NCBI RefSeq assembly: GCF_030846775.1
Contig: NZ_CP132910.1
Location: forward strand, 3,475,001 to 3,539,000
Length of the DNA stretch: 64,000 bases
Reading direction: 5' to 3'
From: Geothrix sp. 21YS21S-2
Lineage (GTDB): Bacteria; Acidobacteriota; Holophagae; Holophagales; Holophagaceae
Every line of letters starts with the position of its first letter. The stretch's first letter is position 1. Position numbers and translations under genes: made by a program. Below, piece by piece: positions 20,298 to 22,527 of this stretch. The notes under the pieces were generated by a model, which ran no database searches, had not been told where the DNA came from, and was given only the letters and a program-made list of their open reading frames with translations.

Positions 20298-20336
20298 AAG
20301 GCCCCTCTGGAAACTCCCCCTTGACGGGCGATCCAA

Positions 20337-20370
20337 ACTACACCAAATTGAGTAGACCAATTTGAGTAGT
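20337..20370. promoter_or_regulatory. BlaI-type operator/promoter 1
   Basis: An imperfect dyad, ACTAC-AC-CAAATTG / 7-base spacer / CAATTTG-A-GTAGT, ends 10 bases before the first blaI-like start codon. A TTGACG hexamer (20321-20326) upstream could be the -35 element, so the dyad would cover the -10 region and the transcription start. The outer CTAC...GTAG matches the known BlaI/MecI/CopY operators (TACA/TGTA cores). Confidence 0.75.
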
Positions 20371-20380
20371 CGAGGCCCCC

Positions 20381-20752
20381 ATGACCCACCCCCCCCGCCC
20401 CACCGAAGCCGAGCTCAAGATCCTCAGGATCCTCTGGGACCTGGGGCCGGTGCCCGTCAAGGACGTCCAGGCCGCCCTGGCCTGCCACCAGGAGTACACC
20501 TATACCGGGGCCCTGCGGATGCTGCAGGTGATGCTGGAGAAGGGGCTGGTGGCCCGGGACGAGTCGGCCCGCTCCCATGTGTACCGCGCGGCCCATCCCC
20601 GGGAGTCCATGGAGCAGGGGCTCGTGGCGGACCTGCGGGACCGGCTCTTCGGGGGGTCGGCCCTGGCGCTGGTGCAGGCGGCCTTGCAGGCGGGATCGGT
20701 CTCCCCCGAGGAAAAGGACCGCATCCGGCGGCTGCTGGGGACGTCGAAATGA
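20381..20752 (+). CDS. BlaI/MecI/CopY-family transcriptional repressor (module 1)
   Basis: A 123-residue winged-helix repressor. The N-terminal domain (PTEAELKILRILWDLGPVPVKDVQAAL, then YTGALRMLQVMLEKGLVARDE, about 7-65) is the DNA-binding domain typical of BlaI, and the C-terminal helices (about 85-120) dimerise. Members bind a dyad over their own promoter and are cleaved after an M56-type membrane protease senses a signal. The gene sits directly behind such a dyad and overlaps the M56 gene by 4 bp (ATGA), giving a complete sensor-repressor unit. Confidence 0.92.
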   Translation: MTHPPRPTEAELKILRILWDLGPVPVKDVQAALACHQEYTYTGALRMLQVMLEKGLVARDESARSHVYRAAHPRESMEQGLVADLRDRLFGGSALALVQAALQAGSVSPEEKDRIRRLLGTSK

Positions 20753-22461
20753 ACGGCGCGGCGCCGGCGCTGGGGTGGGCCCTGGTCCATTCCGTCTGGC
20801 AGCTCGCCGCGGTGGGGGCCGTCGCGGCGGTCCTGCTGCGGGTGGCGGGACCGGAGCGGCCCCGGGCCCAGTACGGCATCGCCCTGGGCGCCCTGGTGCT
20901 GTGCCTGGTCCTGCCGGCTCTGGGCTTCGCCCAGGGGCTCGCGGTGGCCGCCGAGGCCATGCCGGGGCCCGCGGGCACGGAACCGGCCCTGCAGGCCCTC
21001 CAGGCCGCTCCTCCCGTGGCTGAATCCGGGAGGCGCCTGGCCTGGATGGCCGGGCACCTGGGCTGGGTCGCGGCCGCCTGGAGCCTGGGCGTGGCCGGGA
21101 TGGCCGCGCGGCTCGGAGGGGGCTGGCTGACCACCGTGGCCTGGCGCCGCCGGGCGCGTCCGGCGCCCGATGCCTGGCAGGGGCGCTTCGCGGGCCTCGC
21201 GCGGGCCCTGGGCGTGCGGGGACGGGTGCTGCTCCTGGCCTCGGCCCGGGTGGCCACGCCCGTGGCGGTGGGACTCTGGCGTCCCGTGGTGCTGGTGCCG
21301 GCGGCCCTTTTCACGGCCCTGCCCGAAGCCTACCTGGAGGCGCTCCTGGCCCATGAGCTGGCCCACGTGGCGCGCCTCGACTACCTCGTCAACCTCATCC
21401 AGGGCGTCATCGAGGTGCTCTGCTTCCACCACCCCGTGGTGTGGTGGCTGTCCCGCCGGATCCGGACCGTGCGGGAACACCTCTGCGACGATCTGGCCGT
21501 CAGGGCCATCGGCGATCCGCGGCGCCTGGCCCTGGCCCTCGACGCGCTGGACGACGTCCAGCCCAACCTCACCTCAATGGCCCTCGCGGCCCGCGGAGGA
21601 ATCTTGCACGAACGCATACGCCGACTCCTGAACCCGCCCCCAGCCACCTCGTCGTGGTCGCCGGGGCCCGCCATCCTCCTGCTTGCGCCCTTCGCCGTCC
21701 TGGCGCTGCGCGCGGGCGCTCCCGCGGCTCCACCCATCAACGCCGATCCGGGCGCCATCGCCGGCCTGGACACCCTGGCCGCGCGGGAGGGCCTGGATCC
21801 CCAGCTGCTCAGGTCCGTGGCCTGGGCCGAAAGCGGCCTCAATCCCAAGGCGAAGAGCCCCCTCGGGGCCCTGGGCATCCTGCAGGTGATGCCAGCCACC
21901 GCCACGCGCTTCGGCGCCCGGAACCTCGCGGATCCCGCGGAGGTGGCCGCCGCCGGCGCCCGCTACCTGAAGTTCCTGCTGGACCGCTACCAGGGCGACA
22001 CGGCCCGGGCCGTAGCGGCCTACAACTGCGGCGAGGAGGCCCTGGACGCGGGACGCGCCGGCACCGAGGCCGAGAACTACCGCGGCCTCGTGCTGGACCT
22101 CCTGAAGGCCCGGGCCGTGCAGCCCGCGGCGCCCCTGGGGCAGGGGTGGGTGGACGGCACCCTGCGCCGCACGGGATCCACCTGGACCGTGTGGACCCGG
22201 GTGAGCCACCGGGGCGGCCTGAAGCTGGAGTTCCTGCCGGATAACCCGGACGGCAAGCCGTACGGCACGGTGAAGGCGGGCGGCGGGGAGCCCCGGGACG
22301 CCTGGACCGAGTCGCGCCCCAGCGTGGTCATGGACCTGCGCGGCGGCACCACGGTCCGCGTACGCTGCACGGATGCCTCGGGAGGCGCCTCCGGCGAGGT
22401 CCGCATCCCCCTGGACGCGGCCTGGAAGACCTTCGCCTTCCGCATGGAGGCCCGTCCCTAG
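20749..22461 (+). CDS. M56 (BlaR1-type) membrane protease fused to a lytic transglycosylase (SLT) domain
   Basis: A 570-residue protein with two recognisable parts. Residues 1-320: membrane helices and an M56 protease core with HELAH at 202-206 and a downstream HLCDDLAV segment (Glu/Asp region of BlaR1). After another membrane helix (PAILLLAPFAVLAL, about 307-320), residues 340-430 form an SLT-type domain: catalytic Glu in WAESGLNPKAKSPLGALG (E361), GILQVMPATATRFG (376-389) and AYNCG (424-428). A beta-rich tail (465-570) follows. In BlaR1 this place holds a penicillin-binding sensor. Here the sensor is replaced by a peptidoglycan-binding or -cleaving domain, so the signal may be peptidoglycan itself. 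Start overlaps blaI by 4 bp. Confidence 0.9.
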   Translation: MNGAAPALGWALVHSVWQLAAVGAVAAVLLRVAGPERPRAQYGIALGALVLCLVLPALGFAQGLAVAAEAMPGPAGTEPALQALQAAPPVAESGRRLAWMAGHLGWVAAAWSLGVAGMAARLGGGWLTTVAWRRRARPAPDAWQGRFAGLARALGVRGRVLLLASARVATPVAVGLWRPVVLVPAALFTALPEAYLEALLAHELAHVARLDYLVNLIQGVIEVLCFHHPVVWWLSRRIRTVREHLCDDLAVRAIGDPRRLALALDALDDVQPNLTSMALAARGGILHERIRRLLNPPPATSSWSPGPAILLLAPFAVLALRAGAPAAPPINADPGAIAGLDTLAAREGLDPQLLRSVAWAESGLNPKAKSPLGALGILQVMPATATRFGARNLADPAEVAAAGARYLKFLLDRYQGDTARAVAAYNCGEEALDAGRAGTEAENYRGLVLDLLKARAVQPAAPLGQGWVDGTLRRTGSTWTVWTRVSHRGGLKLEFLPDNPDGKPYGTVKAGGGEPRDAWTESRPSVVMDLRGGTTVRVRCTDASGGASGEVRIPLDAAWKTFAFRMEARP

Positions 22462-22477: not shown

Positions 22478-22527
22478 TTGACATCTACATTTTCTTTCGT
22501 AGATTGATACTACGAAAGAAAATGTAG
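22478..22527. promoter_or_regulatory. promoter with a perfect 18+18-bp operator dyad (module 2)
   Basis: CTACATTTTCTTTCGTAG (22485-22502) and its exact reverse complement (22510-22527) flank a 7-base spacer. A consensus -35 hexamer TTGACA (22478-22483) abuts the dyad, so a bound repressor would cover the -10 region, the start site and the ribosome-binding site; the next gene starts only 7 bases later. Outer CTAC/GTAG ends and the 7-base spacer are shared with operator 1, but the inner arms differ, so the two modules may have separate specificity. Confidence 0.88.

Follow-up and report, generated by a model that had tools for sequence, protein, structure and literature searches.

BlaR1 is known as a drug switch. 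In this protein, the binding of a ligand outside the cell frees a protease inside it, which then cuts the repressor BlaI directly (PMC9834060). The zinc site of the protease has the form H201ExxH...E242xxxD, together with Asp210, and a near-invariant tyrosine, Tyr261, approaches the zinc-site His201; induction in B. licheniformis depends on this tyrosine (PMC9834060). Signal peptidase also trims BlaR1, between the fourth transmembrane helix (TM4) and the sensor (PMC9834060).

A cytoplasmic peptidoglycan dipeptide can inactivate BlaI and MecI on its own (PMC3305447). Uncrosslinked glycan that is made under beta-lactams is degraded by Slt in E. coli (PMC5549755), and in Vibrio soluble uncrosslinked strands are cleared by lytic transglycosylases (PMC8820737). 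M56-M23 proteins have been noted earlier (PMC9662197). For a fusion of an M56 protease with an SLT domain, no description was found in the open-access literature.

A Protease Fused to a Lytic Transglycosylase Domain

The window, the whole stretch of 64,000 nucleotides that was analysed, belongs to a genome of 5.25 Mb on a single contig (G000). It contains an open reading frame at 20749..22461 on the + strand, beginning with ATG at 20749, ending with a stop codon at 22461, and free of internal stops. The product, P0001, is 570 amino acid residues long. A sequence-only reading of the same DNA had described it as a BlaR1-type M56 protease joined to a lytic transglycosylase, and the frame proves to be real, with both Pfam domains far above their cut-offs. 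Peptidase_M56 covers residues 105-254 (E 9.9e-21; 74.6 bits against a cut-off of 31) and SLT covers residues 344-434 (E 1.8e-23; 82.8 bits against 21.3). The NCBIfam models for BlaR1-generic and for several lytic transglycosylases also match, all with scores below their cut-offs, as is expected for a mixed architecture. By every sequence test, P0001 is an M56 protease combined with an SLT-family domain.

The chain begins with transmembrane helices 1-3 and the extracytoplasmic TM2-TM3 loop (residues 6-131; 20764..21141, + strand), a strongly variable region assigned from hydropathy, charge and the structural model. Next comes the M56 zinc metalloprotease domain (residues 132-300; 21142..21648, + strand), recognised by Pfam, by a Foldseek match to BlaR1 (8exr, TMt 0.60) and by residue invariance. 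Its HExxH motif, HELAH starting at residue 202 (residues 202-206; 21352-21366, + strand), is completed as a zinc motif by E243 and D247. TM4 (residues 304-324; 21658..21720, + strand; hydropathy and model) is followed by a stretch of small residues, APA. The SLT lytic-transglycosylase domain (residues 333-460; 21745..22128, + strand) is identified by Pfam, by Foldseek matches to Slt, MltF and T7 gp16, by invariance and by dN/dS. The protein ends in a C-terminal Ig-like beta-sandwich (residues 465-570; 22141..22458, + strand; AlphaFold and VIA-align).

The three motifs named for the transglycosylase in the sequence-only reading can all be located, ESGLN starting at 361, ILQVMP at 377 and AYN at 424, and E361 (codon 21829-21831, + strand) is correctly placed as the catalytic glutamate. 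The same reading held that SLT occupies the place of the penicillin sensor in a blaI-blaR layout. This agrees with the Pfam and NCBIfam scans of P0001, in which transpeptidase, beta-lactamase and any other penicillin-binding family are absent and SLT stands in that place. Because the penicillin-binding domain is absent, P0001 is not a beta-lactam sensor of the BlaR1/MecR1 kind, though its working mode may resemble that of one.

The Repressor Gene and Its Operators

Directly upstream of the fusion lies a gene for a blaI-like winged-helix repressor (P0002, 123 residues; 20381..20752, + strand). It matches Penicillinase_R (E 1.4e-21) and resembles PDB 2g9w and S. aureus BlaI (1sd4). The ATG of the fusion overlaps the stop codon of blaI. 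The same coupling, overlapping or almost so, is found in all 17 Holophagaceae pairs examined.

The putative promoter of the module is marked by a -35-like TTGACG (20321..20326, + strand), read from the sequence. Between this element and the start of blaI sit two overlapping BlaI-type operator dyads, TACACCAAATTGAGTA at 20339..20354 and TAGACCAATTTGAGTA at 20353..20368. Both were recovered by a genome-wide pattern search of G000, and the first has the same position in G002 and G005. The repressor and operator that had been proposed from the letters are therefore both recovered, the operator as a double one. Comparable dyads precede blaI in every Holophagaceae pair read, and TTGAC[A/G] recurs about 11-12 bases before the first dyad upstream of most blaI-M56-SLT pairs of the family. 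P0002 can be assigned to the BlaI/MecI repressors, being a winged-helix protein of the Penicillinase_R family whose own promoter has dyad operators.

To what extent the operator occurs elsewhere was followed by matching its pattern against whole genomes, with up to 2 mismatches in G000, G001, G002 and G005 and up to 3 in Geothrix. G000 and G005 each contain the twin module sites alone (2 mismatches or fewer). G002 contains the module pair and two weak extras (299437 and 2740061; 2 mismatches), which have no counterpart in G000. A reversed control pattern gave a comparable number of matches in this search. The pattern was not found at up to 2 mismatches in G001, a module-free genome. A 30-bp Geothrix version of the operator has one full-length site per genome in four genomes, each at the module (3 mismatches or fewer). 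It was found neither in G035, a genome without the module, nor in G018, whose module operator differs more.

Since convincing copies of the operator were found at its own promoter only, the main controlled product is probably M56-SLT itself, and the pair is probably autoregulated. A wider BlaI regulon was sought and rejected in so far as no second operator appears in G000 (2 mismatches or fewer) or in Geothrix (3 or fewer), with a pattern that would miss degenerate sites. Through such sites, a regulon that extends beyond the operon is possible.

One alternative model builds on degenerate sites of this kind. It supposes that the SLT domain binds glycan or muropeptides chiefly to signal, and that BlaI runs a wall-damage regulon. 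The SLT position is identical to that of the BlaR1 sensor, blaI and operators are present, and other M56 proteins bear peptidoglycan-acting folds such as Peptidase_S11, all of which would suit a pure sensor. However, at the mismatch levels used there is no further convincing operator in G000, G002, G005 or the four Geothrix genomes, a constant wall or resistance gene is absent from the neighbourhood, and the full catalytic set is conserved, which is more than binding alone requires. The pure sensor is thus a doubtful reading.

The neighbours of blaI-M56-SLT are constant inside a genus group and different between groups. Because they differ between genera, the pair can be regarded as a self-contained module. 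Among the neighbours compared across genera, no beta-lactamase or resistance gene linked to the module was recognised, and no cell-wall or resistance gene is a constant neighbour in the Holophagaceae comparison.

A second, independent blaI-M56 pair (P0003 and P0004; 22478-24267 of the window) directly follows the fusion. It has its own perfect 18-bp inverted repeat (22485-22502, 22510-22527) after TTGACA. In G002, the next conserved gene follows the fusion without this pair in between. The C-terminal part of P0004 has no Pfam match.

Predicted Structure and Topology

An AlphaFold model of P0001, built with 15 sequences, has a mean pLDDT of 82 and a pTM of 0.51, which indicates good domains in an uncertain mutual arrangement; the linker at residues 318-325 falls below a pLDDT of 50. 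The best Foldseek matches of the model are cryo-EM structures of S. aureus BlaR1 (8ext and 8exp, with 8exr matching the TM and protease part at TMt 0.60), followed by Slt, T7 gp16 and MltF. In the prediction, then, the N-terminal part resembles BlaR1 and the SLT part resembles Slt and MltF.

Four membrane helices are predicted in the order seen in BlaR1, all before SLT. TM1, TM2 and TM4 are clear in hydropathy, and TM3 is seen in the model only. The loop that joins TM2 and TM3 and the stretch just behind TM4 have little positive charge, and the M56 domain has more. From the charge distribution and the predicted helices, M56 is expected to lie in the cytoplasm and SLT, with the Ig-like domain, in the periplasm. 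The sequence-only reading had named a cytoplasmic SLT domain as an outcome that would speak against it. Such a placement is unlikely, as SLT comes after the last of four predicted helices in the BlaR1 pattern.

That reading had also described a beta-rich tail. When folded alone, the tail is predicted to be a nine-stranded all-beta sandwich (AlphaFold, pLDDT 89.5). It aligns with Ig-like domains at a Z of about 10 (VIA-align), and its structural matches are generic Ig-like domains only. The tail was also considered as a carbohydrate-binding module. This was rejected, with a sub-threshold CBM_6 match in one of 20 tails (E 0.047) and structural matches of the generic Ig-like kind. Since the tail is missing from the G013 fusion and from the type-2 fusions described below, it is an optional part of the architecture.

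Distribution and Conservation

Among 60 relatives searched, 14 further Holophagaceae genomes, from six genus groups, proved to carry the full M56-SLT frame. Listed besides these 14 is the fusion of G034, which is broken off by a contig end within SLT. The orthologue in G005 is uncounted, as its N-terminal part lies at a contig end and the SLT part was not seen. When the search was extended to 396 genomes of the phylum, 11 more from the Geothrix group were added, so that the module is found in 16 of 26 genomes in this group and in 26 genomes besides G000 overall. One carrier of an orthologue is Geothrix paludis (Acidobacteriota; Holophagae; Holophagaceae), and by kinship G000 is a member of this family. 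The module is dispensable, because about 10 of the 26 Geothrix-group genomes are without it.

A frameshift, an assembly error or the chance joining of neighbouring genes could in principle produce such a frame in a high-GC sequence with many spurious open reading frames, and the sequence-only reading had raised the first two itself. No support for any of these was found. The same joined frame is present in 26 further Holophagaceae genomes, several of them on a single contig, and dN/dS is well below 1 over both domains. With full-length orthologues in many independent genomes, this explanation is already refuted and its probability is negligible.

An alignment of 15 fusion proteins, 34-79% identical to P0001, brings out the residues that do not change. 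In the protease these are H202, E203, H206, D211, E243, D247 and R289, and the M56 residues are also invariant across 60 diverse M56 proteins. The zinc-site residues correspond to H201ExxH...E242xxxD and Asp210 of BlaR1. In the transglycosylase they are E361, S362, S370, G373, G376, Q379, P382, Y425 and N426. SLT equals the M56 core in conservation, with identity to P0001 at 45-83% in SLT and 40-89% in the core; the TM2-TM3 loop and the tail are variable. In four close pairs, SLT has a dN/dS of 0.10-0.21 and the M56 core one of 0.17-0.24, with 0.15-0.33 in the tail and 0.27-0.49 in the N-terminal TM and loop region. Because these values are low, both enzymes are under purifying selection. SLT catalysis is probably needed, and not binding alone, since the SLT signature residues are invariant and the domain is under strong purifying selection.

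Two positions differ from BlaR1 and BlaI of known function. The counterpart of BlaR1 Tyr261 is Leu260 in P0001, and the 15 fusions have Leu in 11 cases, Val in one and Tyr in three; the type-2 fusions have Tyr. S. aureus BlaI is cleaved at Asn101-Phe102, with Phe at P1', and the counterpart of Phe102 is Ala101 in P0002. These replacements could mean that M56 signalling has been lost, and that the protein is a proteolytically inert relic, a membrane-anchored lytic transglycosylase behind a repressor. Yet HExxH, E243, D247, D211 and R289 are invariant, and the M56 core has the low dN/dS given above. The missing Phe, moreover, is a family trait, because the neighbouring BlaI P0003 and other BlaI proteins read share a small residue at this position. 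An inert relic is therefore very improbable. Leu260 and Ala101 nevertheless call for caution on BlaR1-like signalling by P0001 and P0002.

A Second Lineage of Fusions

The search was widened to Myxococcota, and to Acidobacteriota again with a second query. This revealed a type-2 lineage of M56-SLT fusions in G350, G107 (Acidobacteria bacterium Mor1, L126), G267 and G492, the last being a genome from the Myxococcota sample. The type-2 fusions have another SLT subfamily and another linker than those of Holophagaceae, and each stands behind blaI. Other genomes, where the sequence-only reading had suggested looking for the fusion, thus provide both the 26 further Holophagaceae carriers and this separate lineage.

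An extended form is found in G492, where L184 (G492:C599:3440-5236, - strand) is an M56-SLT-M23 protein behind blaI. Its Peptidase_M23 domain (E 1.3e-26) has HxxxD and HxH intact. Judged by its domains, this chain is one cytoplasmic protease with two different wall-cutting domains.

On the M56 tree, holding all M56-SLT fusions together is rejected (AU p = 0.0028), and one origin inside Holophagaceae is not (p = 0.145). The SLT tree alone, which is less decisive than the M56 tree, does not reject a single origin of all M56-SLT (p 0.48). From the M56 tree, the fusion arose at least twice. The blaI-linked M56-SLT pairing, kept in dozens of relatives, suggests a switch that handles the cell wall itself.

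Several other candidates were rejected as fusions, as they have no SLT: G240, which had been suggested by its match range, and the Myxococcota genomes G505, G507 and G556. Among the matches listed for 398 genomes of Pseudomonadota and 246 of Planctomycetota, M56-SLT was not found, with few candidates per genome scored and a strict cut-off.

The M56 proteins L185, L186 and L187 of Myxococcota (G507, G505 and G556) end in long tandem repeats, GVTPEYxxxMxxxGF, and Acidobacteriota G240 (L160) has repeats of a similar kind. In Burkholderiales, L061, L073, L098, L101 and L103 have a C-terminal sequence like that of PBP7-type D-Ala-D-Ala peptidases, a peptidoglycan-acting domain at the sensor position. 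The source genome itself encodes at least five further M56 proteins (L002, L003, L004, L006 and L008) with differing C-terminal parts, in addition to the two of the window.

A Possible Sensor-Effector Loop

The preferred model is a self-contained sensor-effector that is autoregulated through BlaI, with sensor and effector in one protein. In its favour are the complete SLT site and the fact that no operator was found other than the module's own, and its probability is judged to be close to even, on the lower side.

In this model, the fusion would span the inner membrane as BlaR1 does, its M56 domain on the cytoplasmic side and its SLT and Ig-like domains on the periplasmic side. The SLT domain, which appears catalytically competent from its residues, would engage its substrate, most likely the loose or uncrosslinked glycan strands that accumulate when wall synthesis is disturbed. 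Its occupancy may be the signal. A change in the periplasmic domain would pass through TM4 and relieve the inhibition of M56. By analogy with BlaR1, M56 would then inactivate the co-encoded BlaI, and the twin operators over the blaI-M56-SLT promoter would be freed. Because the genome shows no further convincing copy of the operator, the loop would chiefly yield more M56-SLT, and with it more membrane-tethered activity that may cut glycan. The loop would end once the substrate has been removed and BlaI represses again.

The sequence-only reading had proposed a sensor that reads the wall. The SLT position and the blaI-blaR layout with its operators support this part of the proposal, and the idea of a pure sensor does not stand as well. 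A sensor plus effector fits better, given the invariant SLT residues, operators at the module's own promoter only, and M23 in the G492 homologue.

Another model treats SLT as an effector only, that is, as a delivered enzyme. The control of M56 would lie elsewhere: in the TM helices or the extracytoplasmic loop, in a partner, or in a ligand, for example a peptidoglycan dipeptide, that acts on BlaI in the cytoplasm. The fusion would tie synthesis of the lytic transglycosylase to its own protease, and a signal-peptidase-type cut after TM4 could release SLT. Several observations are consistent with this: the intact and strongly conserved SLT catalytic residues, the operator unique to the module, the added M23 in G492, the direct inactivation of BlaI by the dipeptide (PMC3305447), the signal-peptidase cut of BlaR1 between TM4 and sensor (PMC9834060), and the APA stretch after TM4 of P0001. 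The model gives no account, however, of why a lytic transglycosylase should have been joined to the antirepressor of its own gene on at least two occasions. In other M56 proteins, many different periplasmic domains stand at this place, as would be expected of input modules. The effector-only model, though somewhat unlikely, is nearly as good as the sensor-effector, and the pure sensor is less so.

Returning to the sensor-effector, its boldest form is a wall enzyme that is gated by its substrate and amplifies itself. Occupancy of a lytic transglycosylase by its substrate would be signalled through the membrane to the protease fused to it, and this protease would destroy the enzyme's own repressor. 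One protein would thus be sensor, protease and wall cutter, in a two-gene loop that evolved at least twice, once with M23. This form is offered tentatively, at a probability distinctly short of even.

If active wall enzymes are carried on the BlaR1 chassis, bacteria would have in BlaI/M56 a general means of tying wall cutting to gene control, with the sensing of beta-lactams as one specialised use. In Geothrix and other cultured environmental bacteria, M56-SLT could also provide a direct handle on how Gram-negative cells sense disturbed peptidoglycan, a signal that still lacks a good definition.

Comparison with Known Systems

The closest relatives are BlaR1/MecR1 with BlaI/MecI from S. aureus and B. 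licheniformis. Shared with them are an M56 zinc metalloprotease with an identical zinc-site motif, an adjoining BlaI repressor and dyad operators, and four TM helices with an extracytoplasmic C-terminal domain are predicted for P0001. Unlike BlaR1/MecR1, P0001 has a lytic transglycosylase as its C-terminal domain, without a penicillin-binding domain and its acylable SxxK serine. Nor does its module include a beta-lactamase or PBP gene, and its operator was found at its own operon only.

A second comparison is with the family 1 lytic transglycosylases (GH23), such as Slt70, MltF and T7 gp16. The SLT domain has their fold and their full motifs (ES, S, GxxQxxP and AYN). Whereas the GH23 enzymes are lipoproteins or soluble, the SLT domain of P0001 would be anchored behind a cytoplasmic-facing protease and controlled by BlaI.

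Finally, there are M56 proteins with swapped periplasmic domains. Among 60 M56 proteins scanned, the C-terminal domains include TonB_C (9), Peptidase_S11 (5), DUF3738 (2), secretin (2) and HEAT (2), and M23 is known from earlier work (PMC9662197). P0001 has the M56 chassis and the exchangeable C-terminal domain in common with these proteins, and some of their swapped domains likewise act on peptidoglycan. It differs from them in that the swapped domain is SLT and that, in one protein, SLT is joined by M23.
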